A DNA stretch of 25,509 nucleotides, taken from a virus. The stretch is from positions 1 through 25,509 of the IMG/VR virus record IMGVR_UViG_3300026521_000324. One strand, given 5' to 3'. The notes beneath the pieces were generated by a model. The model did no database searches, had not been told where the DNA came from, and saw nothing but the letters and a program-made list of their open reading frames with translations. Position 1 is the stretch's first letter. Each line of letters starts with the position of its first letter. Shown here piece by piece: positions 2,442-25,369 of this stretch. Position numbers and translations under genes: made by a program.

Positions 2442-2500
2442 TATATGTCTCCTTTTTTTAATTTAATTTTTATTTTTTACTAAAAATAAAGAAAAAAATA

Positions 2501-2528
2501 ATAAATATAAACCGTGGTTTATATTTAT
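2501..2528 (-). terminator. 13-bp hairpin followed by T-rich run (terminator-like)
   Basis: Perfect 13-base arms (ATAAATATAAACC and its complement) are separated by two bases. On the minus strand the stem is followed directly by TATTTTTTTCTTT, the form of an intrinsic terminator for transcripts leaving the beta C-terminal gene. It lies about 60 bases before the start of the 399-residue gene, so it could instead be a 5' leader stem that stabilises that mRNA. Confidence 0.6.
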
Positions 2529-2548
2529 CTGATATTAAGATATCTATA

Positions 2549-2579
2549 CAATCATGTCCTTATTTTAAAGACAAGATTG
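2549..2579. repeat. Imperfect inverted repeat in intergenic region
   Basis: Arms 2549-2558 and 2570-2579 pair at nine of ten positions around an 11-base AT spacer. It lies between the hairpin at 2581-2600 and the terminator-like hairpin at 2501-2528. A further small palindrome (GATAT-TAAG-ATATC, 2531-2544) is next to it. An operator or promoter site is possible. No clear sigma70-type promoter was found here. Confidence 0.5.
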
Positions 2580-2580
2580 G

Positions 2581-2600
2581 TAAAGGGCTTCGGCCCTTTA
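2581..2600. terminator. 8-bp GC-rich hairpin overlapping the beta C-terminal stop codon
   Basis: TAAAGGGC and its perfect complement flank a four-base loop that reads TTCG on the plus strand and CGAA on the minus strand. The arm at 2593-2600 includes the TAA stop of the RNAP beta C-terminal gene (2598-2600). On the minus strand the stem is followed by CCAATCTTG rather than a clean T run, so termination there would be weak. Read from the plus strand, it carries the extra-stable C(UUCG)G tetraloop. Function undecided. Confidence 0.5.
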
Positions 2601-4613
2601 CGTAAATTCCATACCAATCATTCTTAATGCAGTGTTAATAGTTTTCTTAGTAACACTTTGATATTTTTGCTTCATATTATATTTGCCATCTTTAATAATT
2701 TTCATTAAGAAAGTTTCCTTATCTTCTTGAGAATCTGATTTAAAAGTATATAATTCTTTTAGTACTGCGTTATTATGTCGGTGCGAAAATAACGAAGCGG
2801 TACTTTGCCAACTTAAATGTTGTCCACCTTCTGCTTTTCTACCCTTAGCTGGTTGACCAGTATTTTTACTATAATTGTTTGCAAAAGATACTGAATTGTA
2901 TTTAGAATTGCTGGTATGGTATAATTTAATTAAGTAATTTTCGCCATACTGCAATTTAGCCTTCGTTTCGTAATAACTTTTAATATCATTCTTTCTAAAA
3001 ATAGTATTTTCCAAATTTAAGAAAGCTCTTAGATAAGTAGTAAATGCTCCAGTAAAAGTAATGTCCTTTTTAGAAGTTAAATTAACATTAAATGTTGATT
3101 CGTACTTATTCATTTTTTTCATAAATTCATAGTAAGGAATATTGGCAAAATTACTAAAAAATAAATATAAACCATTTTTATCAATATCATCCAGTACCGG
3201 ACTAATGGTTTCATTACTAGATAGTAAATTCATTATAGTGTTGTAATATTCTGGATCCGTATCTTTAATAAAAAGTTCCGCCACTAAATGAAGCTTTTCT
3301 ATTCTTAAAACATTATCAGATTTTTCGATATCTCTAATAATTTTACTTAAATTTAATTCATAAATACTTCCCCAGTTATTACGACCAAATATACCAAGAG
3401 AGTTAAAAACAACATCAAATGGTTTTTCAGTATCTGGATTTTTAGGCATAAGTTCATCCGGAACTATTAAAGCAACCGTTCCCTTACCCGCATAAAGATT
3501 ACTAAATTTATCACCTTTGGTTGTTCCAGTAGTATACGAGATATCTAGTTCTACTATATAATCTAAAAATTCAGGATCCACTGAGTACTGTAATTGAAAT
3601 TCTTCTATTAAGTTTTTACTTGGATTTTTCATTTGAAAATATTGTGATTCTATACCATCGATGTATTCTTCAACGTCTTCTTCTTTTAAACCAAGAGATA
3701 AGAATTTCAATCGAAGACTTTCAATATCTTTAAGTTGAATATTATAATAATATTCTAATTCTGTTATTAATTCTGAAGTATAAAAATAATCTTTTCTTTT
3801 CTCGTCAAATGATTTATCCGTTAATTTATGAACTTTAATTCTCTCAACTTTTCCATTTTTAATACCTTCTACTCCCTTAGTATAATACTTGGATTCGGTA
3901 CTCTCATCAATATTGATTAATTCGGTTAGGAAGAAATCTTCCATATCAATATTATAATATTTAGCGATTTTATCCGTATCGTCTAAAGTTTCTCCAAGTA
4001 ATGGAAAATAGGATTCACTTTTTTTATTTTTAATAAATTTCATAAATTTTGTAATCGGTATAAAAATCTTTTCACTGTATTCGATTTCGGTTTTCTTAGC
4101 AAAGCTTTCTGAAATTGCTATAGCATCATCGGCATTGAAACCGAAAAAAGTACTAAATAATATATCGGCTCTGTACCCAACTCTTGGTAGTTGAGTCTCT
4201 GGGATATAGTTACTATAATCAAAAAGAACGTCTCCTTTTTTAAAAGACATCCCTTCGGTTACACAATACTTAAGAGAAAGACTATTATTAATTAACTTTT
4301 TATACAATGGTATATGTTTTAATTCCATTTTCTTTTCAGTAATATAATAAATAATAAGCAGCTCATCTTTTCTAAAGATAACTATTCCGTCTTCCTCGGC
4401 TATTTCCTGGTACGGTGATTGAATAGCGCTAAGATCTTTATAATTTTTATCAATGATGAATGGTGTTTCGGTTTTTTTCGAAATTACTAATTGTCCCATC
4501 TGTTTATTTTCCATATTGAGTCTCGATGCATCCACGCTGGATGCAAAAGGGCAAAATATTTCAACTGCTGGGCTAAATAAAACTACGTTTTTATCATCTT
4601 GATTATTATTCAT
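2598..4613 (-). CDS. Phage RNA polymerase beta subunit, C-terminal half
   Basis: 671 residues matching the catalytic second half of bacterial RpoB. In order: PFASSVDASRLNMENKQMG (22-40) corresponds to the PFxxHxDANRxLMGxNMQ region. GFNADDAIAIS (158-168) corresponds to GYNFEDSILIS, with the acidic pair kept as Asp-Asp. GDKFSNLYAGKG (367-378) corresponds to GDKxxxRHGNKG, with both active-centre lysines. Residues 406-415 (LGIFGRNNWG) match LGVPSRMNIG. QPAKGRKAEGGQHLSW (587-602) matches the QPLGGKAQFGGQRFGEME switch/clamp region. It must assemble with the beta N-terminal piece encoded at 7564-8763 and the two beta' pieces. Split beta chains are known in phiKZ/AR9-type phages. Whether this is the virion or the non-virion enzyme cannot be told from sequence alone. 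Start ATG follows AAAAGGAATATAG. Confidence 0.95.
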   Translation of the reverse strand: MNNNQDDKNVVLFSPAVEIFCPFASSVDASRLNMENKQMGQLVISKKTETPFIIDKNYKDLSAIQSPYQEIAEEDGIVIFRKDELLIIYYITEKKMELKHIPLYKKLINNSLSLKYCVTEGMSFKKGDVLFDYSNYIPETQLPRVGYRADILFSTFFGFNADDAIAISESFAKKTEIEYSEKIFIPITKFMKFIKNKKSESYFPLLGETLDDTDKIAKYYNIDMEDFFLTELINIDESTESKYYTKGVEGIKNGKVERIKVHKLTDKSFDEKRKDYFYTSELITELEYYYNIQLKDIESLRLKFLSLGLKEEDVEEYIDGIESQYFQMKNPSKNLIEEFQLQYSVDPEFLDYIVELDISYTTGTTKGDKFSNLYAGKGTVALIVPDELMPKNPDTEKPFDVVFNSLGIFGRNNWGSIYELNLSKIIRDIEKSDNVLRIEKLHLVAELFIKDTDPEYYNTIMNLLSSNETISPVLDDIDKNGLYLFFSNFANIPYYEFMKKMNKYESTFNVNLTSKKDITFTGAFTTYLRAFLNLENTIFRKNDIKSYYETKAKLQYGENYLIKLYHTSNSKYNSVSFANNYSKNTGQPAKGRKAEGGQHLSWQSTASLFSHRHNNAVLKELYTFKSDSQEDKETFLMKIIKDGKYNMKQKYQSVTKKTINTALRMIGMEFT

Positions 4614-9170: not shown

Positions 9171-9460
9171 TTTATATCCTCATTTTCATCAAACTTAATA
9201 CCAGGTGAAATCATTTCTTTATTCGAAGTTGGTTTTTTAACGATATCCCAACTTCTAAAATTTAATGATTTTTCATAATATGTAGTCTTAATAGATGTAT
9301 CTATATCATCTATATTCCAAGTATTATTATACATATTTGAAATATTATTATTTATCCGTTCATTTAATAAATCCATTATCTGTTTAGTCAATGCTGGATC
9401 AATATTATTTAAATTATTTAATTCCTCTATTGTTGGAAAACTCCAATTATCGTCATTCAT
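9167..9460 (-). CDS. Hypothetical protein, 97 aa
   Basis: Starts MNDDNWSFPTIEELNNLNN and is rich in Asn, Asp and Ile. No family recognised. I chose the ATG at 9458-9460 because it has GAAGGAG six bases ahead. A TTG 15 bases upstream in the same frame lies before that SD and is unlikely to be used. The first codons (ATG AAT GAC GAT) nearly repeat the start of the 148-residue protein (ATG AAT GAT GAT), which hints at a common origin of this row of small genes. It overlaps its upstream neighbour by eight bases and its downstream neighbour by four. Confidence 0.75.
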   Translation of the reverse strand: MNDDNWSFPTIEELNNLNNIDPALTKQIMDLLNERINNNISNMYNNTWNIDDIDTSIKTTYYEKSLNFRSWDIVKKPTSNKEMISPGIKFDENEDIK

Positions 9461-9899
9461 TGGGATCTCCTTCAAAATTAATTTTTAATTTTTCCGGTTT
9501 TTCTGGTTTTTCCGGTTTTTCTGGTTTTTCTGGTTTTTCTGGTTCGCCGAATAATAAATTTTTAGGTATTTTAAGAGTTATTGCAATCTCTTGACATAAA
9601 TTAGTCATTTCTATATCATCTAAAATTATCTCCTTTGGTCTCACACCATTAAATCCATAAGCCGAATTATTGATACCTCTAAGTGAATCGATGTTTATAT
9701 CAACTCCCAATCCCAAACCATAATAACTATTCAATAACATTTTTCTTAAAGTCTCTTTATTATAAATCCTCCAATTCCTATTTCTTTCGGATAAAACTGA
9801 TTCCGGCTGATTATCAATATTATATGAATTTACCGAATCCATCCATTTGGCACATATACTTGATGAACTTCCTATGGTATCTATTTGATCATCATTCAT
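9453..9899 (-). CDS. Hypothetical protein with Pro-Glu-Lys repeat tail, 148 aa
   Basis: Residues 1-115 form a soluble domain without a family match: MNDDQIDTIGSSSSICAKW, then LRKMLLNSYYGLGLGVDIN and SAYGFNGVRPKEI. Then come six Pro-Glu-Lys triplets and the end LKINFEGDPNE. The repeat tail probably makes an extended, charge-rich linker. The ATG follows AAAGGAAATTA, which is the end of a decayed reading frame at 9900-10071. That decayed segment appears to contain a diverged copy of this domain (LRK...NS..G and GF...RP in the same order). The role is unknown. A minor virion or adaptor protein is only a guess. Confidence 0.75.
   Translation of the reverse strand: MNDDQIDTIGSSSSICAKWMDSVNSYNIDNQPESVLSERNRNWRIYNKETLRKMLLNSYYGLGLGVDINIDSLRGINNSAYGFNGVRPKEIILDDIEMTNLCQEIAITLKIPKNLLFGEPEKPEKPEKPEKPEKPEKLKINFEGDPNE
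9489..9542 (-). repeat. Six tandem 9-bp repeats coding Pro-Glu-Lys
   Basis: Six head-to-tail copies of CC(A/G)GAAAAA on the minus strand, with only the third base of the Pro codon varying. In-frame units of nine bases can expand or shrink without a frameshift, so tail length may vary among relatives. Confidence 0.9.
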
Positions 9900-10071: not shown

Positions 10072-10446
10072 TTATTGAATTTCTCCATATTTTTCTAAGA
10101 TTTTTTTAGCCTTTTCTATCTCTTTTTGAGCGATTCTTTTTGTACGCTCCATCTTTTTTAATCTTTCAATGGTTTCTTGTTCGCTTTCCAGAACTTCTTC
10201 TTCCTTTTTAAAAACCATTGTTGTCCCACCATCATATCCATAATAAATAAGTTCGATAAAATCAAAATCAGTTGGAATATTTAAAAGATTTTCAAAATTT
10301 TCAAGTAGTTCTTCTTTCGACATTTGAGTTTTTTTAAATATTTCAGAACAATCTTTTTCAGAAACTATTTTTTTTACTTTTTTAAATTTTTTTTCATTTT
10401 CGATATTGTATTTATCTCTAATAAAGTTTGTCGTTATTTTTGACAT
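10072..10446 (-). CDS. Hypothetical charged protein, 124 aa
   Basis: A soluble protein of two parts: a Lys/Glu-rich helical N-terminal region (MSKITTNFIRDKYNIENE...), a central segment with LNIPTDFDFIELIYYGYDGG, and a C-terminal coiled-coil-like helix (ETIERLKKMERTKRIAQKEI...). No family recognised. Its start lies inside the last codons of the radical SAM gene (13-base overlap), with AAGGAATTAAA as SD, so the two are translated together. That coupling makes it a candidate partner or substrate of the radical SAM protein, but nothing in its sequence proves this. Confidence 0.75.
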   Translation of the reverse strand: MSKITTNFIRDKYNIENEKKFKKVKKIVSEKDCSEIFKKTQMSKEELLENFENLLNIPTDFDFIELIYYGYDGGTTMVFKKEEEVLESEQETIERLKKMERTKRIAQKEIEKAKKILEKYGEIQ

Positions 10447-11375
10447 TTTAATTCCTTTAATATTGCTAAAGCTGAATCTTTTTTAGAAGTTTTTTCTTCT
10501 AAAAGTTTTTCTTTGGTATCAGAAGACTGTTTAAATTTATATAAGTACTGATCGATTACAGATTCCATATGTTCGTTATTTACACAACTTCTACATGGGC
10601 CAAGTACTTGATCAATATCAACTTTCATACTATTCATATTTTCCATATTTTCTATAGAAATTTCAGCTAAATCTATAATAGTACTACACATATCATATTC
10701 CCCAAAAACTACCTTACCATCTTCTTTAATCATCGGTTTACAGAAACTAGTCATACTATGCGTTTTAACATAGTCAATAGCTTTAAACAATTCTCCATCA
10801 TGTTCGCTTAATGAATTATACATATTAAAACAAGATGGGCTTTTTCGATGAGCAATAAAAGAAACTTCTTTTATTTTGTCAATATTTTTTAAAGCTCTAC
10901 CAACTGGAATTATTCCATGATCTAAAGTTTCGCATAAAACCATACGACGTTCTATTTCATCACCATACTTCTTTTTAATTTTAGTGAACTTTTTATTTAA
11001 GAACTTAACTCTTTCATCATGATCTTTATAAATTCCTTTTACTGATATAAGTTGAATTAAAAGATTTGGATATTTTTGCATAAGTTTTAAAACTTTTTTT
11101 AATTGATCCTTATTATAAAAACCTTCACCATTTGTAATAATAGTGATTGGTCTTGGACTAAAAGTTTTTAAAACTTTTTTAAGAATTTTAATAAATTCTG
11201 GATGTTCTGTTGGTTCACCACCACTTAATTGAATAGTAGTAGTAAGTGGAGCAAGTTCTGCAAATCTAATCATCTTATCTATAACTTCCATAGTTGCATG
11301 TTTACCTTTAGTAGTACTATCTTGCATACAATGAATACACTCCATATCGCAATAATTTGTAATTCTAAATACCAT
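10434..11375 (-). CDS. Radical SAM protein with SPASM-like C-terminal cysteines
   Basis: 313 residues. CDMECIHC (Cys9, Cys13, Cys16) is the C-x3-C-x2-C site for the 4Fe-4S cluster, and SGGEPTEHP (51-59) binds S-adenosylmethionine. ITNG (80-83) is a further barrel motif. C-terminal Cys212, Cys230, Cys261 and Cys264 (CRSC) fit an auxiliary-cluster, SPASM/Twitch-type domain, as in peptide-modifying enzymes. The last ~35 residues are a Lys/Glu tail. The reaction is therefore SAM cleavage to a 5'-deoxyadenosyl radical. The substrate is unknown. The start ATG follows AAAGGAGAG, and the start is close to the cluster motif, which is usual for minimal radical SAM proteins. It is the second gene after the hairpin at 11769-11797. 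Tail similarity to the decayed segment at 9900-10000 indicates local duplication. Confidence 0.9.
   Translation of the reverse strand: MVFRITNYCDMECIHCMQDSTTKGKHATMEVIDKMIRFAELAPLTTTIQLSGGEPTEHPEFIKILKKVLKTFSPRPITIITNGEGFYNKDQLKKVLKLMQKYPNLLIQLISVKGIYKDHDERVKFLNKKFTKIKKKYGDEIERRMVLCETLDHGIIPVGRALKNIDKIKEVSFIAHRKSPSCFNMYNSLSEHDGELFKAIDYVKTHSMTSFCKPMIKEDGKVVFGEYDMCSTIIDLAEISIENMENMNSMKVDIDQVLGPCRSCVNNEHMESVIDQYLYKFKQSSDTKEKLLEEKTSKKDSALAILKELKCQK
10528..10549. repeat. Direct repeat copy 2 (22 bp)
   Basis: Identical over 22 bases to 9979-10000. It lies in the radical SAM gene at the codons for YLYKFKQ (residues 277-283). Confidence 0.85.
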
Positions 11376-11412: not shown

Positions 11413-11742
11413 TTAATTGAAATTAATTTTTAATTTTTTTGGTCTATTTCCAAAATATATTTTGGGATATTCGCCATTATTCGGTTGTGTTAATTTAACC
11501 CATCGATTATGAATATTTTGTAAATCTTCACTTCTTTTCAAACCAAAACTTCGATACTCATTTGCCCAAGTAATAAGATAATTGAAAATATCTCTAATAT
11601 TGTCATCTTGTATGGATTTATTAAAACATTGTTCTAAAGACAGATTTTGAAATCCTGTGTTTTTTCTAAATACGTTTAGTAATGTTTCTATATCTGTGAA
11701 TTCCTTTTCCACGAAATCCATAAAATATACCTTCTCTCTCAT
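11413..11742 (-). CDS. Hypothetical protein, 109 aa
   Basis: First gene after the hairpin element at 11769-11804. It reads MREKVYFMDFVEKEFTD..., a helical soluble domain (LEQCFNKSIQDDNIRDIF, WANEYRSFGLKRSEDL) and a basic end RPKKLKINFN. No family recognised. SD AAAAAGGAATAT precedes ATG. It is followed after about 37 bases by the radical SAM gene and may belong to the same functional group. The LKIN ending resembles the end of the 148-residue protein, which could be chance. Confidence 0.75.
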   Translation of the reverse strand: MREKVYFMDFVEKEFTDIETLLNVFRKNTGFQNLSLEQCFNKSIQDDNIRDIFNYLITWANEYRSFGLKRSEDLQNIHNRWVKLTQPNNGEYPKIYFGNRPKKLKINFN

Positions 11743-11822: not shown

Positions 11823-13844
11823 TTAATAATACATTTCCAATAGCTCATTATACATATGGCCGGTTCCTTCGATACCAGCATTTTCATTTTTATAAACATT
11901 AGCAATTGCTCTATTACTAAAGTTATAAAAGATTGATAATTTTGGATCTAGTTTCTCGATAATATTTTTTAGAGCTATTTGATTAGCAGCTGGTTTATCA
12001 GAGTACTTACAAATATTATCATCTTCATCATAAAAAATAAGACTAAGAATCATTTCAAAATAAACACTAAGTAAATCATTTTGAGTTATTACTTCTACTA
12101 ATGAATTATAAATTTCATTAGGAGCTATAAATTTATCATCCTTTCTATTTTTATCAATAAGTGATACAATACTGGTAAGAATTTTTACCGAGTCATCGTT
12201 ATATGGTAAATTAATTACCTTTAATGACATTACCGAATCTTTTACAGTGATATCTAAATCGGAATCATTATATTTAGTAAATAAATATTCTGTAATGGTT
12301 TCGAGATTTTCTTCGGTCGATTCTATTATCGTTTCGTCTTGTTTAGCAATAATTTTAGAATCTTTTAAAATATCTAAAATTTTATAATCGATTTCTGTAA
12401 TAAAAGCTCCACCAAAGTGGTGCGCTCGAAGAACGGATTGGATAATACCTTCCGCAATATAACTACCAAGACTTGCTCCAACATGTTTAGAAGTAGGAGT
12501 TTTTTTACCAAAACATTTTTTACATATACCAAATGTTGGAACCTGACATTTTTGAGGACTATACATTCTCCAAGTCTTTCCAACCATATCATCAAAAAAT
12601 AATTTCCAATCTTCATCGGTTGTTTCGATATCTAAATAAAAATCTTCTTTAGTTTCCTCATTAATAAACCAACGATGATTCAAGGATTTAAGATGATCTT
12701 TACTATGTATTTCTATAACAATTGTTTTACGTTCATCTATTGGAACGTTAGCTTGACAATCTTCTATATCTTCTTCAAAGTGTAAAATACCAGTACTGAA
12801 GAAAAATTTTCGTTGTAGTTCTCCACCTCTAGGAATACTATCCTGTCTTTGCATTAGTGCCAGTCTAGCACTATCTCCAGTTTCGTAATATTCCTTTTGG
12901 GTTAAACCATCAAGTAATGAATGTTCAATATTTCTTGGGATAGCTTTACCATAGATATTGGTAGGAATTCCCGTATTACTTGCTGCTTTTAATAATTGAA
13001 CTGATTTCAATCTTGCTCCGGAATCGGATACCTTATGTAAAATATTATCTGGATTCTTTTTAACTTCTGGTCCAACATAATCTTCAAATAATACCATATT
13101 TTGATGAAATGCTAGATATGGTTCGTTTTGAATAAGATTCTTTTTGTACCCTGTAATTTCTTCGGAATTTACAGCAAAGTCATTTAAATCAAAACTAGGA
13201 TTACAATAATCCACGGTTGTTCCGATTTCCATTAAAAATTTATCCAGTTCATGACCAAGATTCCATAACTCATCTGATCTATTATTCGCTTTTAAATCTT
13301 TATAAAATCTCCACATTAATTTAGTAAGATTTTTTTTATTTAGAATTTCAAACTGATGATATATTGTAAAATCATTAGATGTTTCGTCCCAATTAATAGG
13401 ATGTAAACATCTATTAATTAGCCAATCGGCTAAAGTAAGGGTTCTATCTAAATTTTCGATAGATATTACCAAATTATTTTTTTTAATAATATCAAAATCT
13501 ATAAATTTTTCTCTAAGTTCCGCGAAGTCTTTTACAGTTATTTCTATATCACTTAATAATAAAGCATTTTCTCCAAACTCATTATTAAGATCAAAATTTA
13601 TGTTTTCATAGGATCTTTTAGAATACATATAGCTTGCATATATAGCCTCGTGTTCGAAATCAAATAATAACGAATCTCTTTGTTCAAATTCGATATTATT
13701 ATTTACGAACATATATGTAAAATCGTGTTTTGCTTCTTCCGAATGTAACGCAGCAGCTATGACGTTGTCACCATCATAGTCATGATTATGAAGTACAGAA
13801 GTTAAGTTAGATAACTCCATTACTCTATTTTTTCGTATTTCCAT
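11823..13844 (-). CDS. Phage RNA polymerase beta' subunit, C-terminal half
   Basis: 673 residues from the ATG at 13844. Hallmarks of RpoC in order: HNHDYDGDNV, the Mg-binding Asp triad (residues 22, 24, 26), equivalent to NADFDGD. Bridge helix SGARLKSVQLLKAAS (from 275). A second zinc site made of Cys363, Cys433, Cys441 and Cys444 (DCQ..., KCQVPTFGICKKC). Trigger-loop region GSYIAEGIIQSVLRAHHFGGA, equivalent to [24 protein letters not shown]. The downstream ~190 residues complete the jaw/clamp end. I prefer this ATG to a TTG 18 bases earlier because AAGGAAAATTA lies just ahead of it and it overlaps the endonuclease stop as TAATG. It pairs with the N-terminal piece at 18206-19750, from which it is separated by about 4.4 kb of inserted genes. 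Confidence 0.95.
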   Translation of the reverse strand: MEIRKNRVMELSNLTSVLHNHDYDGDNVIAAALHSEEAKHDFTYMFVNNNIEFEQRDSLLFDFEHEAIYASYMYSKRSYENINFDLNNEFGENALLLSDIEITVKDFAELREKFIDFDIIKKNNLVISIENLDRTLTLADWLINRCLHPINWDETSNDFTIYHQFEILNKKNLTKLMWRFYKDLKANNRSDELWNLGHELDKFLMEIGTTVDYCNPSFDLNDFAVNSEEITGYKKNLIQNEPYLAFHQNMVLFEDYVGPEVKKNPDNILHKVSDSGARLKSVQLLKAASNTGIPTNIYGKAIPRNIEHSLLDGLTQKEYYETGDSARLALMQRQDSIPRGGELQRKFFFSTGILHFEEDIEDCQANVPIDERKTIVIEIHSKDHLKSLNHRWFINEETKEDFYLDIETTDEDWKLFFDDMVGKTWRMYSPQKCQVPTFGICKKCFGKKTPTSKHVGASLGSYIAEGIIQSVLRAHHFGGAFITEIDYKILDILKDSKIIAKQDETIIESTEENLETITEYLFTKYNDSDLDITVKDSVMSLKVINLPYNDDSVKILTSIVSLIDKNRKDDKFIAPNEIYNSLVEVITQNDLLSVYFEMILSLIFYDEDDNICKYSDKPAANQIALKNIIEKLDPKLSIFYNFSNRAIANVYKNENAGIEGTGHMYNELLEMYY

Positions 13845-15334
13845 TAATTTTCCTTTGTCCAAATATATTTGAGATGTCCAGCATCAAACATTTTTCGATA
13901 ACCAGTTTTCAGAACAATTTCTTCCTCCGTTAAATCGTCAGAATAATTTTCTTTAAATTCTTCTAGATTTTTTAATTTATGTTTTTGAAACTGACTTCTA
14001 TGTATCGGTTTAGTACGCCATTTAGTAATTTTATAATAATAATACGAAGGATTGGTAATTTCTATAAATCTAAAACCTAATTTAGAGTATATATTATTTT
14101 TTGAAAATACCCATCTTCTATTACCATACGAAATTACACTCGAAGGATTATAATTTCTAATAAAATATTTAAATAATTTACTAGCGCCACCGATAATTTG
14201 AATATTGAGTTTAGAACAAAACCTAATTAATTCATATTCGTATTCCTTATTGAATCTTGGTTTCCCAAAAGTCATCATTGCTAATAATTCATCTTCGCTA
14301 TATAATCCTAATTTAATTTTAGAATATGAAAAACCCTGCAAATGATTTTCATTTAGAAAACTTCTTGCTATATGTGATGGAACTAACCTTACCTTTAATT
14401 TTCTAGCATAATATCTTTTTTCATAACTACCAAATTTGGCATTTATCTTCGACTGCCAAATACCAGGAATATGATTTATTTCATCTTCATTTATTTGAAA
14501 TAAATGAATATCTTTTTTTTCGGCTTCGTTAACTTTTATAAAATGCCGATCTCTGTAAAATTCTTTTGGATGTTTAGTATGATTAACTTGACCATAACTA
14601 TGCCAATAAATACCATTTACTTCTATAGCAAACTTATATTCTGGAATATAAAAATCCAATTCCGTTTTATTATCTAAAACTTTTCTAGTACCTGTAAAAA
14701 TATTAAAATTTTTTACTAATAAATCATTGGTATTATCTAATAAATATTTAACTTTCTTTTCCGTTTCCGGAATTTTATATTGAGTTTTAACACTTATTTT
14801 AAATTTTCTAAGATATTTTTGCACTATTTGCTTAGATATTTTTAAACGATTTTGAACTTCTAAATAATCGATTATATATTCGCCACCCTTTTCTACCAAA
14901 AATTCTTTTATAAATAATTCCTTATCTAATAAATACTTTGCATTTTCTCCATAAAGTTTTCTTAATTTAGTCTCGGTTTGTTTATATCTACTTGCATCGG
15001 AGAACTTTTCTTTTCCGATATTTGATAAATACGAACTTCCTTTTTTACAAGATAAACTACAGAAACTTCCAGGACGAGAATTAGCCAAATTCACCATTTT
15101 ATTACAATTATTTCCTTTACATAATAAATCGCCCTTCGTGTAATGATTCAGATAAAAAGAAACTTTCGACCGAATATCAGTTTTTATATTTTGAATTTCA
15201 TTTAACTTTGCATCGATAAAATAGTTTTCTATAATTTCTCTTTCTTCGGAAAGAATATTTTTTAATAAATGTGAATTTAATATTCCACGTTTATCAAAAT
15301 ATTTTTCGAAAGTATATTTCCTAGGTTCACCCAC
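13844..15334 (-). CDS. Homing endonuclease, PD-(D/E)XK/Vsr-like, with zinc and GNAT-like domains
   Basis: 496 residues, starting at GTG with AAAGGAGAGTAA ahead. Residues 72-96 hold a Cys4 site (C-x4-C-x14-C-x3-C). A helical DNA-binding stretch follows. Then comes a nuclease core ELDFYIPEYKFAIEVNGIYWHS (split here as ELDFYIPEYK and FAIEVNGIYWHS, 225-246), with Asp227 and Glu238 as likely metal ligands and a downstream HLFQINEDE. This is the pattern of Vsr-like/EDxHD homing endonucleases in phages. The last ~220 residues (NENHLQG, KIKLGLYSED, YELIRFCSKL, GGASKLFKYF, SKLGFRF) look like an acyltransferase (GNAT)-type fold. The gene sits directly before the beta' C-terminal gene, and its last codons (AAG GAA AAT TAA) supply that gene's SD. 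It is paralogous to 16663-18234. Confidence 0.8.
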   Translation of the reverse strand: MGEPRKYTFEKYFDKRGILNSHLLKNILSEEREIIENYFIDAKLNEIQNIKTDIRSKVSFYLNHYTKGDLLCKGNNCNKMVNLANSRPGSFCSLSCKKGSSYLSNIGKEKFSDASRYKQTETKLRKLYGENAKYLLDKELFIKEFLVEKGGEYIIDYLEVQNRLKISKQIVQKYLRKFKISVKTQYKIPETEKKVKYLLDNTNDLLVKNFNIFTGTRKVLDNKTELDFYIPEYKFAIEVNGIYWHSYGQVNHTKHPKEFYRDRHFIKVNEAEKKDIHLFQINEDEINHIPGIWQSKINAKFGSYEKRYYARKLKVRLVPSHIARSFLNENHLQGFSYSKIKLGLYSEDELLAMMTFGKPRFNKEYEYELIRFCSKLNIQIIGGASKLFKYFIRNYNPSSVISYGNRRWVFSKNNIYSKLGFRFIEITNPSYYYYKITKWRTKPIHRSQFQKHKLKNLEEFKENYSDDLTEEEIVLKTGYRKMFDAGHLKYIWTKEN

Positions 15335-16465: not shown

Positions 16466-16663
16466 TTATTTAATCATTTCTACATCAGATATTAATCTAT
16501 CTAATGTATCTCGAAGGTCTTTCGCTTCTTTTAAACTCAAATAAATATCTGATCCAGAATCATCCACATTGGCTTCAAATGATTCTATATTTGGAAAATC
16601 ATTTTCTTTCAGACATGTGTTTACTTCGGTTGCACTTATTTTTTTAAGAACTATTAATTTCAT
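16466..16663 (-). CDS. Hypothetical protein, 65 aa
   Basis: Starts MKLIVLKKISATEVNTCLKE and ends ...LDRLISDVEMIK: two or three strands then helices. No family recognised. I chose the ATG at 16661-16663 because GAGGAG lies just ahead and the ATG overlaps the TAA of the endonuclease (TAATG). Longer versions in this frame begin inside the endonuclease gene without an SD. The SD is provided by the last endonuclease codons. Confidence 0.7.
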   Translation of the reverse strand: MKLIVLKKISATEVNTCLKENDFPNIESFEANVDDSGSDIYLSLKEAKDLRDTLDRLISDVEMIK

Positions 16664-18234
16664 TATTTCTCCTCTTTTATCCATTCGTATTTTAAATTTC
16701 CACAATTATAAATTTTTCTATAACCATTTTCAAGCATAATTTGTTTTTCGGTTTTAGAATCTTTATAATTTGGTAAATGTTTTAATTTTGACTTAATAAA
16801 TTTATATCTAGTAAACAATTCTCCATTTTTAGTATAACTATAACTAGGTAAAGATTCTCCTATAAAAGTAAAACCCAAAGTCAGATATAAATTTTTATTT
16901 GAATATGCTATTCTTTTATTCGCATATGATAAAATACTTTTTGGTCGATAATTTTTAATAAAATACTTAAATAATTTACTAGCTCCTCCAACCACAGAAG
17001 TATTTAAAATATTACAGAATCTTATTAATTCATATTCGTATGTTTTATCGTACCTTGGAGTACTAAAAGTCATTAAACTGACCAAAGTATCTTTATGATA
17101 TAAACCCAGTTTTATTTTACCAGGAGTACTTCCCTGCAAATGATTATTTTCTAAAAATAATTTAGAATCTTTAGAAGATACCTCTTTAACGATCAACTTT
17201 CTAGCGTAGTACGATTTGATATTTTTTCCAAGTTTATTCCGAATAATACTTTTCCAAATATCTTTCTTTTGTATCCATTCATTTTCAAAAATATGTAATA
17301 AATTGAAATTTTTTTCTTCCATCACTTGAGTTTTTTCTAAATGTTTAAATTTATATTTATATTCTTGATCAATTTTACTTAAACCAAAACTATGCCAATA
17401 CAAACCATTATATTCTATAGCTAAATTATATTTCGGTATTAAAATATCAATTTCTTTACCTATTAATGATTTATCATTTTCAATAGTTTCTATATTTAAA
17501 CTATTAATGAATGAATTTACTTCCTTTTCTCCTTCGGAATATTTAAGATTTTTTATTTGATATTCTATACCAAGCTTTCGGAATTGTTTGTATGGTAAAG
17601 TTTCGGAACAATTAAAATATTCTCTAAATAATTTCCATTTAATTTTTTTATTTTTATCTAAAAAATTTTTTATAAGAAAATCTCTATTATAAAATAATTC
17701 CTTATTCTGTCGGTGACCAAGAATTATATTATTAATTCTTTTCTTTCTTAGTAAAATATTTTCTTCTTCTAAAATTATTCGATTTTTAAAATTATCCTTT
17801 CCTGGACGATTGTCCCAAGAACCATATTTTTCAATAATTGTTTTTTTACGTTTTTCCAATCTTTTTCCCGCGTTTTCTTTTTCCCGAGTAGATGAATTTT
17901 TTTTATTTTTTGGATCAGTATTAAAACATTTTAAATTACAATATCTTTTAACATATGGTCCGCGATTTGGATTAGCTTTTTCTATTTTAAATTTTAATTC
18001 TTTAAAACATGTTTCGCATAAAGGTTTTTGGTTATAATCATTTTTTATACACCACAATAAATCCCCAAACGATATAGATTCTTTATTTGGAATATTATTT
18101 AAATAAGTATAGATATCCCTTACCAAATCCACATCCTTCTTTAAAGTAAAACTATTTAATTTTTCATTACCATTTTTATCAAAGAATTGAAATTTATATA
18201 TTTTTTTAAGAAGTTCTTCCTTCATTAAACTCAT
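16663..18234 (-). CDS. Homing endonuclease, PD-(D/E)XK/Vsr-like, with zinc and GNAT-like domains
   Basis: 523 residues, paralogous to 13844-15334 over most of its length. Cys73, Cys76, Cys99 and Cys103 form an N-terminal zinc site with different spacing from its paralog. Nuclease core: SEGEKEVNSF (233-242), GKEIDILIPKYN (259-270) and LAIEYNGLYWHS (271-282), with Asp263 and Glu274 as likely metal ligands, followed by HIFENEW. The C-terminal GNAT-like region includes NNHLQG, KIKLGLY, YELIRFCN, VVGGASKLFKYFI and LTLGFTF, ending NGYRKIYNCGNLKYEWIKEEK in shortened agreement with the paralog's GYRKMFDAGHLKYIW. Its start overlaps the end of the beta' N-terminal gene by 29 bases, with AAGGATAAAATAG as SD. 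A homing gene abutting the conserved polymerase gene it interrupts is the expected arrangement. Confidence 0.8.
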   Translation of the reverse strand: MSLMKEELLKKIYKFQFFDKNGNEKLNSFTLKKDVDLVRDIYTYLNNIPNKESISFGDLLWCIKNDYNQKPLCETCFKELKFKIEKANPNRGPYVKRYCNLKCFNTDPKNKKNSSTREKENAGKRLEKRKKTIIEKYGSWDNRPGKDNFKNRIILEEENILLRKKRINNIILGHRQNKELFYNRDFLIKNFLDKNKKIKWKLFREYFNCSETLPYKQFRKLGIEYQIKNLKYSEGEKEVNSFINSLNIETIENDKSLIGKEIDILIPKYNLAIEYNGLYWHSFGLSKIDQEYKYKFKHLEKTQVMEEKNFNLLHIFENEWIQKKDIWKSIIRNKLGKNIKSYYARKLIVKEVSSKDSKLFLENNHLQGSTPGKIKLGLYHKDTLVSLMTFSTPRYDKTYEYELIRFCNILNTSVVGGASKLFKYFIKNYRPKSILSYANKRIAYSNKNLYLTLGFTFIGESLPSYSYTKNGELFTRYKFIKSKLKHLPNYKDSKTEKQIMLENGYRKIYNCGNLKYEWIKEEK

Positions 18235-19750
18235 CTATTTTATCCTTGTATATTTTCTGAATTGCTAATTTCATATTTCTTTCAAAAACTTTTCCCATCA
18301 TTGATCCAGTTTTTATAAGATTCTTAACATATTCCGGGGCTTCCTGCATAGCTTCGAAATATAATAATCTTTCATCTGCAGAAAGATTATCTAATTCTAG
18401 CATTTCTATAATTTCATTTGGAGAATCCCCGTATGCTCTTGCTAACATATAACCAGACATACTCCATTTATATAAATTAGGTTGTCTTTCAACAATCATT
18501 TTAAAATCGGAAATATAGTTTTTAAGAAAATCCGTTAAATCGTCTTCTGGTATAGATATTTCAAAGTTTTTATCAAAACTGTCATACACATATTGAATAT
18601 ATTCGACTATACTAAATAATTTAACATCTCCCTCTTTCTCTATAATTTCGATTTCGTTTTCTTCGTATTTGAGAAATAGATATCTGAGTAGTTCGGGTAA
18701 GAATAGCTTTTTTACGCTTTCTTCTGGAAGACCGATTTGATAAGGTTTTAGAACTGGATTGGGAACAATTACCGCTCTTTGAGAAAATTCTATAGTTTTA
18801 CCAGTTAACGATTCTTTAACGTAATTTTTATTTTTTTGAAAATTAAATTGCAAAATCTCATCGTAGATATCGTTAACGGAATCTTGATACTTGTAAACAG
18901 TGTTTCCAAAAAAATCCGAATTAGCGTTATAAAGATTATCCATGATACTAGTACCTCTGGAAATATTTTTAAGTATCTCAATATACGCTTTTGAAATTGG
19001 GTGTGGAATAATCTTAACATTTGAAATTTTAATAACCTGTCTTGAACCAGGAGGAGTTACTAGAACGTAATTAATAAATATATACTCAATGTATTTACCA
19101 TTCAGTTTATCCGTTATTAAATGTCTGTATTTGTAGACCAAATCATCATTCTGTTTCTCTTCTTCGGTTAAAGGTGTTTCTAAAATTTCCCCAGTTTCTT
19201 CGTTTGTTATATAAAATTTTTCCTTCTTTTCATCCTTTAAATAATTAAATAATAATCGTAAAGAATTGATATCAAATACTGGAAAATCAGTTAAACAATT
19301 TTCGAGTTCTTTTTCGGAAATTTTTGATAATTTTAATAACTTTTCTTTGGAAAAGCTATATAAATAAGGTACTTCCTTATTTGAATTATATTGAAATTTA
19401 TTCAATATATTTTTAATTGCATTAAATCCAAATACCTCTTGAAGAGCGTTTTTAAAATCTGGATTAATAACATAGATCCCTTCTGGTAATAGTATTTTCG
19501 CAAATTGTTCATTACGTCTATCGGATGTATTACATTCGACTCCGCAGATATCGCATATTTCGTTTTTATTAATACGGCTGAATAATTTTCCACATTGACA
19601 TTTATAGTTTTTTACTGGACCAAATATCTGCTCGGAATATAAGGAATCTTTGCTAAATAGGTTGTGTTTATTACTTGTGTATATAGCTGGATTCGTTACT
19701 TCGGGTAACGAATCCACTCTCGCATATTCTTTAAAATTCAATGTAATCAT
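18206..19750 (-). CDS. Phage RNA polymerase beta' subunit, N-terminal half
   Basis: 514 residues. LYSEQIFGPVKNYKCQCGK (37-55) and EICDICGVEC (64-73) reproduce the RpoC zinc ribbon (GLFCxRIFGPxKDYECLCGK...VICxxCGVE), with Cys51, 53, 66 and 69. TPPGSRQVI (232-240) matches LPPDLRPLV. LTGKTIEFSQRAVIVPNP (315-332) matches LLGKRVDYSGRSVITVGP. KPYQIGLPEESVKKLFLPEL matches LHQCGLPKKMALELFKPF. RQPNLYK (422-428) matches RQPTLHR, just before where the catalytic loop should come. Instead of that loop the protein continues ~85 residues into a helical tail. The Asp triad is in the next polymerase gene at 13844. The ATG follows AAAAAGGAATAGA. The tail may help hold the two halves together or be acquired sequence. 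Confidence 0.95.
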   Translation of the reverse strand: MITLNFKEYARVDSLPEVTNPAIYTSNKHNLFSKDSLYSEQIFGPVKNYKCQCGKLFSRINKNEICDICGVECNTSDRRNEQFAKILLPEGIYVINPDFKNALQEVFGFNAIKNILNKFQYNSNKEVPYLYSFSKEKLLKLSKISEKELENCLTDFPVFDINSLRLLFNYLKDEKKEKFYITNEETGEILETPLTEEEKQNDDLVYKYRHLITDKLNGKYIEYIFINYVLVTPPGSRQVIKISNVKIIPHPISKAYIEILKNISRGTSIMDNLYNANSDFFGNTVYKYQDSVNDIYDEILQFNFQKNKNYVKESLTGKTIEFSQRAVIVPNPVLKPYQIGLPEESVKKLFLPELLRYLFLKYEENEIEIIEKEGDVKLFSIVEYIQYVYDSFDKNFEISIPEDDLTDFLKNYISDFKMIVERQPNLYKWSMSGYMLARAYGDSPNEIIEMLELDNLSADERLLYFEAMQEAPEYVKNLIKTGSMMGKVFERNMKLAIQKIYKDKIDEFNEGRTS

Positions 19751-19786: not shown

Positions 19787-20431
19787 CTATAAAGCTAATC
19801 CTCTATCGAAAGATATGTTTATATCCATCGGTTTCGTGATAAGAATATCAAAATTTCGATTTTGATATTCTTCGGTTTCTTCTAAAAAATCCAAAATTTG
19901 CCTTCTAATATAGGATAACGCCGATATAACATCACTAAGCGAAATGATATTTTTTGGAAGCGTTACGTTAGTTAAAACTATATCAAAATCTTTAGCCAAT
20001 GAATTATCAAATGAAGTACCATTAAAAATCATTTTTTCTATAACTCGGTTATATTCATGATATTGGTCATACAAATTATTTGAAAATTTAATAAATTTTG
20101 GATATTTATTCAATTCGAATGGGACCGGATCGGTAACATCCAGAATTGAATCCAAATTTTGAACTCGTATTTGATCAAATGGTCGATTCAATCGTAGATC
20201 AAACCATTTGGAAAAAGTTGGAAAATATAATTTTTCTCCATTTTGCCAATATTCTTTTCTTCCAGTATTCCATAAAATAGCATAACCATTATAATTATTA
20301 TAATTATATCTGCTACCTACGTAGGTACTATTGGAAAACTCTAAAATTATATCCTTTCTAGGAAATTCTTTATTTTTTATATGTTTCTCGAAAATTCTTT
20401 TGTATTGTTTTTCAAAAAAATATCTTACCAT
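19787..20431 (-). CDS. Hypothetical protein, 214 aa
   Basis: No family recognised. Tyr/Asn-rich N-terminal half (TYVGSRYNYNNYNGYAILW, then NTGRKEYWQNGEKLYFP), which loosely recalls single W-x-x-N-G-K units of the repeat protein encoded at 21178-21936. The C-terminal half is helical and charged, with ISLSDVISALSYIRRQ and FLEETEEYQNRNFDIL. No membrane segment. The start follows AAAGAGGTTTT. It lies upstream of the beta' N-terminal gene by about 36 bases, so it is probably co-transcribed with it. Confidence 0.75.
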   Translation of the reverse strand: MVRYFFEKQYKRIFEKHIKNKEFPRKDIILEFSNSTYVGSRYNYNNYNGYAILWNTGRKEYWQNGEKLYFPTFSKWFDLRLNRPFDQIRVQNLDSILDVTDPVPFELNKYPKFIKFSNNLYDQYHEYNRVIEKMIFNGTSFDNSLAKDFDIVLTNVTLPKNIISLSDVISALSYIRRQILDFLEETEEYQNRNFDILITKPMDINISFDRGLAL

Positions 20432-20450
20432 AAAACCTCTTTAATTTAAT

Positions 20451-21161
20451 TTAAGAACTACAAGAACTAGATGAACTACAAGAACTAGATGAACTAGATG
20501 AACTAGATGAACTAGATGAACTACAAGAACTAGATGAACTACAAGAACTAGATGCTAAAATAGCGGTTGTAAAAAGGGTATTATCATCCGAATCTCGAGT
20601 AGTTGAAGATCTAGTTGAAGATCTAGTTGAAGATCTAGTTGAAGATCTAGGAAAAAGTTCATTTATAAAACTCTCCCCATATATTTCCGAATAATCTTCT
20701 TTTTGTGGATGTATTGGAGAGGCTAAATCTATAATTTTCTTAAGAGTTTCAATTTTTTTAATACTTGAAATACCTTTTAATTCCGAGTACGGAACATGAT
20801 TAATTACAATACCAAAAACTTCTAAACACATATCCAAATATTTTTTATTATCTAATAATAATAAATGCCAAATTTCATCAGCCTCTTCGTCAAACATTTC
20901 AAACCCCTCTTCGGATACAGAAGAAGCATATAAAAAATGAAAAAGTCTTTCTCGAGCAGATATGAAACTACTATCTGGAAATTTTTCTAAAAATCTTACT
21001 TTTACATATTCATCCGTATTTTTATAGTTATGGAAATTATTATTAAAATCCGCAACTGGAATTTTTTTCTTTCCATTAACAGCGTGCATAAATTCTAACG
21101 CTTCCTCTAATTCTTTAATCTTTGCTTGATCGTTTTTATTTTTTCTAAATAAACTAAACAT
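20451..21161 (-). CDS. WH-motif domain protein with Ser/Cys repeat tail
   Basis: 236 residues. Residues 70-125 contain DEIWHLLLLDNKKYLDMC then LEVFGIVINHVP. This resembles the pattern D-E-x-W-H-x-H-I-L-D-x-x-x-Y...C...F-G...H-x-P known from bacterial proteins often labelled glycine-rich domain proteins, which also tend to end in Cys/Gly/Ser-rich tails. Here the second His of W-H-x-H is Leu. The tail has four Arg-Ser-Ser-Thr units (about 172-187), an acidic spacer, and eleven (Ser/Cys)-Ser-Ser triplets with four cysteines to the last residue. Function is unknown. The tail could be surface-exposed, cross-linked or modified. SD AAAGGAAAAAA precedes ATG. Confidence 0.7.
   Translation of the reverse strand: MFSLFRKNKNDQAKIKELEEALEFMHAVNGKKKIPVADFNNNFHNYKNTDEYVKVRFLEKFPDSSFISARERLFHFLYASSVSEEGFEMFDEEADEIWHLLLLDNKKYLDMCLEVFGIVINHVPYSELKGISSIKKIETLKKIIDLASPIHPQKEDYSEIYGESFINELFPRSSTRSSTRSSTRSSTTRDSDDNTLFTTAILASSSCSSSSSCSSSSSSSSSSSSSSCSSSSSCSS
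20455..20553 (-). repeat. Eleven tandem 9-bp repeats coding (Ser/Cys)-Ser-Ser
   Basis: On the plus strand the units read GAACTACAA (4 copies) or GAACTAGAT (7 copies), in the order CAA, GAT, CAA, GAT x4, CAA, GAT, CAA, GAT by their last three bases. The two unit types decide whether a triplet starts with Cys or Ser. The array runs up to the stop codon and is identical within unit types, so it is recent or gene-converted. Confidence 0.9.
20601..20648 (-). repeat. Four tandem 12-bp repeats coding Arg-Ser-Ser-Thr
   Basis: Four perfect copies of AGTTGAAGATCT on the plus strand (Arg-Ser-Ser-Thr on the coding strand). This second minisatellite has a different unit length from the one 50 bases away in the same gene. 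Confidence 0.9.
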
Positions 21162-21177
21162 TTTTTTCCTTTATTAA

Positions 21178-21936
21178 TTAATTAAAAATCACATCTAACT
21201 TAAAAGTTTTTATAGTGAAATCTCGTTTTGTAAGATAAATACCATGTATATAATATTTATCATTCTCTTTCTTTTTATAATGTTCAATAGCTGGTCCATC
21301 AATTCTATGCCGCTTACCATTAATATAAAATTGTTGAATGCCACTACTTTTACATATTATAGCTGGCCCATCCGTTTTATGATATTTTCCATCTATTGCC
21401 CAAAATTTGCAATAATTTTTAGATATTTTCGCTGGTCCATCTTCCCGATGCAAATGGCATGGATCTTCTCTTATTAATTTCTTAATAAATTTTCTTCTTT
21501 CTGCCCAGAATGTTATTATTCGGGTTCTATCTTCATAATCCAAATCCATCCAATCTATTTTTATAAAATAGATATTCGAATGATCATATAATAACCAATC
21601 GTTTAGTGGTTTTGCTATCACATATATTTTAAAAAAATGTATATATTTAAAGGCCGTGGACGGTTTATAAAATAACGGAAAAATACCATATTTAAAATAT
21701 TTAAAATAAATATAAATTGGATATAATTTAAAAAATTGCCAGATAAATATGAGAAGCATTCCACCAATTTTAAAAAATTCCATTATTGAATTAAAGTATT
21801 TTATAAACGTTGGGAAACTTAATTGAAACCATAATTTTAATTTTCTTAATCTCAATTGTGAATTATTTCCTAAACTATTTAAATCCTCTCCTCCTCTTTC
21901 ATCTCGCGTGTTAACTGAGCCATCGGTTTCCATCAT
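21178..21936 (-). CDS. Membrane protein with H-x-x-D-G-P-A repeats
   Basis: 252 residues. A polar N terminus (MMETDGSVNTRDERGGEDLN) is followed by hydrophobic, aromatic segments at about 57-70 and 71-92, which probably anchor it in the membrane. The C-terminal 90 residues hold three repeats: HREDGPA (163-169), HKTDGPA (186-192) and HRIDGPA (210-216), each spaced by a short strand such as KFWAIDGKY or QFYINGKR. This H-R-x-D-G-P-A / W-x-x-N-G-K pattern is common in phage and bacterial beta-repeat proteins of mostly unknown role, and probably forms a small beta-sheet surface. The ATG-ATG start follows CAGGAGAATAA and overlaps the end of the upstream endonuclease by 26 bases. Confidence 0.75.
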   Translation of the reverse strand: MMETDGSVNTRDERGGEDLNSLGNNSQLRLRKLKLWFQLSFPTFIKYFNSIMEFFKIGGMLLIFIWQFFKLYPIYIYFKYFKYGIFPLFYKPSTAFKYIHFFKIYVIAKPLNDWLLYDHSNIYFIKIDWMDLDYEDRTRIITFWAERRKFIKKLIREDPCHLHREDGPAKISKNYCKFWAIDGKYHKTDGPAIICKSSGIQQFYINGKRHRIDGPAIEHYKKKENDKYYIHGIYLTKRDFTIKTFKLDVIFN

Positions 21937-22855
21937 TTATTCTCCTGGTTCGAATAAGATATTTTAATAAAATAGTTTCTATATTATTAAAATTCCAATA
22001 AGGTATTCTAATAAGGACTATGTTATTATTTTTACAGTATTCCGTTTTAATTTTATCCCGTCTTTTAGTTTTTTTTAATCCTTCTTCTCCTCCAAAATGT
22101 TCAATACTTTTAAAATGCAACTCTCCATCGTACTCAATAACTGTATTTAAATCTTCTAGATAAAAATCAAATCTATAATTCCCGAAGAGTTTAACTTCTT
22201 GTCTAAAAACTATATCATGATCTTCTAAAAACATGGCTATTCTTTTTTCACCTTTTGAGAATTTGCACTTAGGGCATCCAGAATTACCATTATAAACATC
22301 TCTAAAATTTTTATAATGTTTTCCATGTTTATTACAAAAACATGGAATTTTTTTATTATTTTTTTTTAATAATAAAAATTCCTTTTCTGATAATTTAAAA
22401 ATATTTTGATAAATATCAAAATATTTTTTTTTAAATTTATCATATGATACTCCTGAACAAAAAGGACAATTATTTTTATTTGTAAAATGTTCTATACTGG
22501 TTTGATAAAAAATATGATTTTTATCACATTTGATTTTTAATTTAGAATATGTATTTATATAGTATTTTTTAAACCAATCTTTGGTCAGAAAGGAATAGTT
22601 ATAATTTTTTCTAAATTTTTTTTTAAAATCATCGTAGTCTATTTTTTTAGCTTCTTCATAACATAATCTGCAAGATGCTTTATTTTTTATACTCAAAAGA
22701 CTTTGATAAATAATACCATGTTTTGGGCATATAATTGGAAATAAAGTACTTGTATTTTTATAATGAATATCGAACCAATCTTTTGTAATTAAGATATAAC
22801 TAAAATATTTATTTTTTTTAATTTTTAAAAAACTTAAAAAATTATATTTGACCAT
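21911..22855 (-). CDS. Homing endonuclease with zinc repeats and PD-(D/E)XK core
   Basis: 314 residues. Three repeats of the form C-x2-H...C-x2-C at about 43-65 (CPKHGIIYQS...CRLC), 110-133 (CDKNHIFYQT...CPFC) and 174-197 (CNKHGKHYKN...CPKC) are typical of phage DNA-binding zinc modules. The C-terminal nuclease domain starts SKGEKRIAMFLEDHDI (200-215) and contains RFDFYLEDLNTVIEYDGELHF (split: RFDFYLED and TVIEYDGELHF), with Asp230 and Glu241 as likely metal ligands, then a final helix. This is the layout of free-standing phage homing endonucleases, distinct from the two GNAT-tailed ones in this window. SD GGAAGATAAAT lies in the last codons of the SWIM gene. It may have landed between neighbours once adjacent. 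Confidence 0.8.
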   Translation of the reverse strand: MVKYNFLSFLKIKKNKYFSYILITKDWFDIHYKNTSTLFPIICPKHGIIYQSLLSIKNKASCRLCYEEAKKIDYDDFKKKFRKNYNYSFLTKDWFKKYYINTYSKLKIKCDKNHIFYQTSIEHFTNKNNCPFCSGVSYDKFKKKYFDIYQNIFKLSEKEFLLLKKNNKKIPCFCNKHGKHYKNFRDVYNGNSGCPKCKFSKGEKRIAMFLEDHDIVFRQEVKLFGNYRFDFYLEDLNTVIEYDGELHFKSIEHFGGEEGLKKTKRRDKIKTEYCKNNNIVLIRIPYWNFNNIETILLKYLIRTRRINDGNRWLS

Positions 22856-25048: not shown

Positions 25049-25369
25049 TTAATCATGAAACTGAATTTCAATTTTATGAATATTTTTTTCCTTTGGATAC
25101 AATTCACCAAACGAAATTTTAACTTGTAAATCTTCTAAAGATTGACAATAATTCCACCATGTATTATTTATGCTTTCCCAAATAATTTCATCGTAATGGG
25201 CATTACTCCAAGTAAAAGCAAAATTAATATATTCTCCTACTTCTACTTCCTCATATGGTTTTAAACTAACTAAATCTTTATTTCCTTTACTTGTGTAGGT
25301 CTCTATGAAATCTTGGATTATTTCTGGTGGATAATTATTTCTTAACCATTCCATAAATTCTATTTTCAT
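25049..25369 (-). CDS. Hypothetical protein, 106 aa
   Basis: First gene after the palindromic element at 25384-25446. Acidic, Trp-rich (FAFTWSNAHYDEIIWESINN, split at TWWNYCQSLEDL), with EFMEWLRNNYPPEIIQDFIE at the N terminus. No family recognised. SD ACAAGGAATAATAA precedes ATG. Short and small, placed at the head of a long co-directional run. Confidence 0.75.
   Translation of the reverse strand: MKIEFMEWLRNNYPPEIIQDFIETYTSKGNKDLVSLKPYEEVEVGEYINFAFTWSNAHYDEIIWESINNTWWNYCQSLEDLQVKISFGELYPKEKNIHKIEIQFHD

Follow-up and report, generated by a model that had tools for sequence, protein, structure and literature searches.

Plant GRDP1 and GRDP2 (PF07173, DUF1399) are described proteins whose core is related to that of the protein treated here, which is encoded in a virus record of 25,509 bases (IMG/VR record IMGVR_UViG_3300026521_000324; this whole stretch is called the window). 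GRDP2 is reported to have a C-terminal glycine-rich domain with interspersed cysteines (PMC4299439), and enzymes of the MNIO type are proposed to act on the Cys-dotted Ser/Gly tails of TIGR04222 proteins (PMC12452194). The architecture of a core followed by a Cys-bearing tail is already known, and the window protein is a new, divergent phage member; our searches of the open-licence literature listed none that deals with the Ser/Cys tails which phage GRDP-like proteins carry. The protein probably combines a small helical GRDP-like core with a disordered, Ser-rich and Cys-dotted tail, built by slippage, that would work through its thiols; the gene would be an accessory one outside the radical SAM pathway. 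Within this explanation, the identity of the protein and the origin of its tail form the strong part. The gene and its parts are as follows.

20451-21161, minus strand: gene for the GRDP-like (WH-motif) protein of 236 aa with a Ser/Cys tail made from repeats (open reading frame (ORF) list, homology)
20787-21011, minus strand: predicted helical core of the GRDP-like type, roughly residues 51-125 (modelled with confidence by AlphaFold)
20791-20879, minus strand: signature D-x2-W-H-x8-Y-x8-G-x4-H-x-P with seven invariant positions (pattern match)
20600-20650, minus strand: 12-bp array, 4.2 copies, encoding (Arg-Ser-Ser-Thr)4
20455-20554, minus strand: 9-bp array, 11.1 copies, which reaches the stop codon and encodes the (Ser/Cys)-Ser-Ser tail

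Core, homologues and repeat arrays

The WH motif that an initial annotation had singled out in this protein is indeed present, as part of a core of seven positions (D, W, H, Y, G, H and P) that are invariant in ten diverse relatives and are all kept in the window protein. Written as a DNA pattern, these positions match once in the window and in 0 of 100 shuffles. The same pattern found 71 stretches in viral contigs, all confirmed by profile search except L035 and L065, which proved false by profile and were rejected as family members. A scan of GTDB with the seven-position pattern plus Cys gave at least 119 stretches, and among the 80 loci analysed, none was false by profile. The seven positions are invariant in 122 of the 122 rows of alignment A3, where the rows other than the window protein had been chosen with this same pattern. 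PF07173 is matched at E<=0.01 by 21 of the 122 A3 members (best 1.1e-8), and a Halomonas plasmid homologue (L007) exceeds the Pfam cut-off, with 25.0 against 22.7 bits. When the curated Pfam rule is applied to the window protein itself, 0 families exceed the cut-off. Because only intermediates match the Pfam model, the protein is termed, on the strength of its sequence, a divergent relative within the wider GRDP-like superfamily (PF07173/DUF1399) and not a PF07173 member.

The nearest homologue is a tailed protein of 239 aa from another viral contig, L037 (IMGVR_UViG_3300045825_000603); compared singly with the window protein, it shows 37% identity across 94 aa, with E 3e-16. A tblastn search of 50,697 phage records gave one match, gene_95 of Klebsiella phage 05F01 (BBK09209.1), which aligns with residues 89-127 of the window protein (39 aa, 41% identity) around the WH motif. 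Located without using the tail, this protein still ends in SCSSCSTSSCSSSSCSSSSCSSSSCSS, and the C-terminus of this sole phage-database match likewise reads SSCSSSSCSSSSCSSSSCSS. When the window protein or the Klebsiella protein was used to scan viral_contigs directly, no relative was found.

The AlphaFold model of the window protein is helical, with ten-residue blocks mostly at pLDDT 85-95 over about residues 51-125. Among viral structures, Foldseek ranks a giant-virus 'glycine-rich domain-containing protein-like' first, with a probability of 1.00 and a TMq of 0.52 but an E-value of 0.08; Foldseek searches of the PDB and of viral structures gave no match with E<=0.001, and VIA-align of the model against the PDB reached a best Z of 2.8, with nothing significant.

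Tandem Repeats Finder (TRF) scores the 9-bp array at 144 and the 12-bp array at 102 (100% match), and its 11.1 and 4.2 copies agree with the 11 and 4 copies in one gene noted in the initial annotation. Both arrays exceed chance, since both scores lie above the maximum reached in 60 dinucleotide-preserving shuffles of the window (best score averaging 61, maximum 100). They are in frame within a single minus-strand ORF, the unit of the 12-bp array being AGA TCT TCA ACT (Arg-Ser-Ser-Thr) and that of the 9-bp array TCT AGT TCA, which extends up to the stop codon; an 18-bp variant, TCT AGT TCT TGT AGT TCA, introduces Cys. This codon reading agrees with the in-frame minisatellite origin that had been proposed for a Ser/Cys tail reaching the stop codon. 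Two tails had been described; the Ser/Cys array is terminal as stated, whereas the Arg-Ser-Ser-Thr array is internal, with non-repeat residues separating the two. The four cysteines, thought to be evenly placed, are found at residues 207, 213, 228 and 234, with spacing of 6, 15 and 6, the final one lying 3 residues from the end.

A sister C-terminal 9-bp minisatellite in the window (9489-9544), encoding Pro-Glu-Lys, has about 6 copies by TRF, against about 1 copy in two relatives by alignment. Since this copy number differs between relatives, in-frame minisatellite change occurs in this phage lineage, and the length variation among isolates that had been expected for the tail array is plausible.

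The Ser/Cys tail across the family

A tail was scored where the last 30 residues are at least 60% S, G, C or H and include at least 3 Cys. This rule holds for 16 of 46 family ORFs, as against 0 of 701 other ORFs of at least 100 aa from the same loci (Fisher p 2.6e-21, with relatives that are not independent). The gene caller behind the count of 46 missed some family ORFs; another count, bacteria included, gives 154 family ORFs from 150 loci, of which 33, over phage, viral, plasmid and bacterial loci, carry the tail. All 33 of these tails have their final Cys 3-8 residues before the C-terminal end, whereas shuffled tails give a mean of 15.4, with 0 of 20000 as high. The commonest Cys spacings are 4-6, and outside the window, the tails mix TCN and AGY codons for Ser, without a perfect DNA repeat. 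The mixed codons together with the recurrent spacing therefore suggest that selection on the protein, and not slippage alone, maintains the Ser/Cys pattern. The window tail has the highest TRF score of the 33, its almost pure minisatellite being the extreme of a continuum among family tails. In A3, a Ser/Gly/Cys-rich C-terminal tail is a frequent, not universal, trait of the superfamily, and the window protein has it.

On the tree, tailed members group together, as do untailed ones, with 14 changes against a shuffled mean of about 34 (0 of 500 as low); this tree is, however, poorly resolved, its members are not independent, and the window protein forms its longest branch. A transmembrane-like segment precedes the core in 16 of 33 tailed and 14 of 121 untailed members (p 1.3e-5), and in the examples read by eye, basic residues follow it. 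By the positive-inside rule, this would place the tail on the cytoplasmic side.

Another bacterial branch of the family carries repeats of single-Cys units after the core, such as PAYCAR, AYCAGPGAK, GAGCFV and AWCTSPGK (L005:3998-4612 and loci L101, L110, L139, L145 and L153), and resembles multi-core precursors. Several of these loci adjoin a sensor/EAL-type gene, a hint taken from blastp clustering that was dominated by shadow ORFs and otherwise unused. At another locus (L003:120-1374 and 1381-4483), WH genes that are duplicated in tandem and end in short Cys-rich stretches are followed by ORFs that read, by eye, like a glycosyltransferase and an ABC transporter.

Genomic setting of the gene

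Three further features of the window bear on the setting of the tail gene.

19806-21159, no strand: two-gene segment present in the window only, compared with relatives, and replaced in G001, G002 and G003
19787-20431, minus strand: 214-aa ORF with no assigned family, directly downstream of the tail gene and missing from relatives with the tail gene
10434-11375, minus strand: radical SAM gene (PF04055, E 2.2e-13) proposed as a partner by the initial annotation and judged to lie outside the system

The tail gene is present in 0 of the three relatives of the phage (G001, G002 and G003). By alignment, all three lack it at the same site: the bases left between matches number 54 in G001 (opposite window 19798-21178), 120 in G002 (opposite 19805-21160) and 226 in the fragment G003 (opposite 19793-22020), where more is replaced. 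From these comparisons, the tail gene appears to be an accessory insertion carried on the two-gene segment. The 214-aa downstream ORF is also missing from the relatives lacking the tail gene; as a conserved companion it was rejected, since a search run without a positive control matched it in 0 of 19 viral records.

An RNA-polymerase-like gene at 2598-4613 is found in two of the three relatives, at 93 and 87% identity. In the window, RNA-polymerase-like genes (2598-4613, 11823-15334 and 16663-19750) interleave with homing-endonuclease-like ORFs, and the polymerase genes are possibly split; 18206-19750 matches a PHROG RNA polymerase beta and 13844-15334 weakly matches Vsr. A C-terminal motif like K-L/I-K-I-K/N-F-E-G-D recurs on small, partly unlike proteins of the phage lineage (window 9453-9899, 11413-11742 and 25049-25369; L084; L085; L089:6249-10055; L090:5072-6968). 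It was found by pattern in 19 ORF rows, orthologues included, and may reflect paralogy or a C-terminal sorting signal.

Alternative explanations and comparison with known systems

The initial annotation paired the tail with the radical SAM gene as substrate and enzyme, so that thioether or related links would be installed on the Cys/Ser tail. The gene does lie nearby, about 9.1 kb from the tail gene, and of the NCBIfam models it fits HxsC best, which comes from the His-Xaa-Ser system and has a repeat-tailed protein as its partner there. The peptide-modifier features attributed to it are, however, weak, the HxsC score of 53.4 bits being far under the cut-off of 267.9. The three relatives without the tail gene all retain an orthologue of the radical SAM gene, with identities of 90, 87 and 76%. 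Of the 16 viral records that bear a tail, just 3 match PF04055, 2 of them over the cut-off (L004, L019 and L042 were counted as tailed on visual inspection); 0 of 16 other records (13 viral, 3 plasmids) match it. This search took in 34 records, which include few of the actinophage type and, of the near-identical L019 and L039, L019 alone; many viral records are fragments, so absence is no proof for any one of them, but five of the tailed records free of radical SAM exceed 200 kb. Two long relatives of 130 and 167 kb (L091 and L092) hold 13 and 12 PF04055 matches. With a dozen in each, a radical SAM gene within reach is therefore to be expected in this lineage, and proximity to one is a poor guide. 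Co-occurrence of the WH-motif and radical SAM families, the check proposed at the outset, is thus largely lacking (3 of 16), and the linked and co-inherited substrate gene and maturase by which a radical-SAM-modified peptide would be recognized are not seen. We hold such a pairing to be very improbable.

Another thiol-modifying enzyme of phage or host, of the MNIO type, might modify the tail, for example to give a metal-chelating group, and the tails of the window family do resemble the Ser/Gly/Cys tails of TIGR04222 proteins. Against this, MNIO (PF05114) is missing from 19 of 19 viral records; of the 27 bacterial genomes with a tailed homologue, 14 hold an MNIO, which shares a contig with the homologue in one only, about 1.47 Mb distant. 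TIGR04222 membership of the window protein was rejected, with no match in the protein or in these 27 genomes, and the combination that would mark an MNIO-modified precursor, an MNIO gene nearby and a TIGR04222 signature, was not found. Among the listed ORFs neighbouring tailed homologues (106 of 143; the 25 most frequent of 132 families viewed), no family was matched by more than three and no recurrent enzyme appeared, and we consider this route improbable. A neutral, low-complexity tail, one without function that slippage extends by Ser/Cys codons where the C-terminus tolerates them, would account for the near-perfect DNA repeats and would be in keeping with the second, unrelated C-terminal minisatellite of the window that varies between relatives. 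It sits poorly with the likeness of composition and final-Cys position in all 33 tails, from phages and bacteria and with mixed Ser codons, and with the lack of such tails in the 701 other ORFs; a functionless tail seems unlikely to us.

A better enzyme-substrate candidate within these contigs is a radical SAM gene found in L091, L092 and a third contig, L212; its product has 585-615 aa and carries Cys motifs close to the C-terminal end, and the L091 copy is phrog_1802. This gene sits directly before a protein of 191-204 aa with a Cys-rich end, C.CNTVCTCNC..NY (L091:1816-4230, L092:534-2971 and L212:5487-7812; 3 of 3 contigs with the DNA motif), and the gene preceding it matches a tail-fibre PHROG in L091. 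A run of small radical-SAM-like genes is also present in L091 (6552-14798) and in L092, both relatives of the window phage.

In the preferred explanation, that of a GRDP-like core with a thiol-bearing accessory tail, the invariant D..WH........Y........G....H.P helical domain would carry a disordered, Ser-rich tail dotted with Cys. This would be the C-terminal thiol tail that recurs in the family, a Ser/Gly sequence in which Cys mostly follow one another at intervals of 4-6 residues; in the window phage, replication slippage would have turned it, in frame, into an almost pure minisatellite with a 9-bp unit. Its thiols would act in the reducing cytoplasm, slippage would alter its length, and the gene would be an accessory insertion separate from the radical SAM pathway. 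The tail may most readily be seen as a flexible metal- or partner-binding appendage of the helical domain; taken alone, this mechanism is tentative, and we would not bet on it at even odds.

Several points weigh against this explanation. Pfam, PHROG and NCBIfam scans of the window protein give no significant match, its GRDP-like membership depends on intermediates, and its branch is the longest of the tree, at 3.05. The Foldseek E-values are not significant (best 0.08), and there is no convincing sequence relative of the window protein in the PDB (best E 0.2). The window protein has no transmembrane segment, so the argument for the cytoplasmic side of its tail is indirect. Given 14 gain/loss changes on a poorly resolved tree, the tails may also be partly convergent.

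A rather unlikely but broader proposal is that the GRDP-like core with a Cys-dotted disordered tail forms one functional class in plants, bacteria, giant viruses and phages, in which the C-proximal Cys are conserved as the site of action, by way of a metal, a persulfide or covalent attachment, and that phages re-tune the tail by slippage against their hosts. The odd repeat tail becomes a test case for the GRDP-like family. Because the plan of a core plus a Cys tail, with its strict C-proximal Cys position, is met repeatedly in phages and bacteria (and, according to the literature, in plants), one biochemical result on the tail could explain many unannotated proteins.

Like the window protein, TIGR04222 (near_uncomplex) proteins have a Ser/Gly-rich C-terminal region with Cys (PMC12452194), whereas the window protein lacks a TIGR04222 match. 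The core of the window protein has diverged too far from PF07173 to match the Pfam model directly, and compared with plant GRDP2 (787 aa), the window protein has 236 aa and a Ser-rich, repeat-encoded tail. The L037 protein shares with it a similar length, a Ser/Cys tail and a 9-bp period, but its tail ends in CGGGS, its DNA repeat is less regular and its 46.8-kb record has no radical SAM match. Finally, gene_95 of Klebsiella phage 05F01 differs in its 286 aa, its N-terminal hydrophobic stretch and a period of 15 bp, not 9 bp, whereas it has in common with the window protein the WH core and a tail ending in CSSSSCSSSSCSSSSCSS directly before the stop codon.
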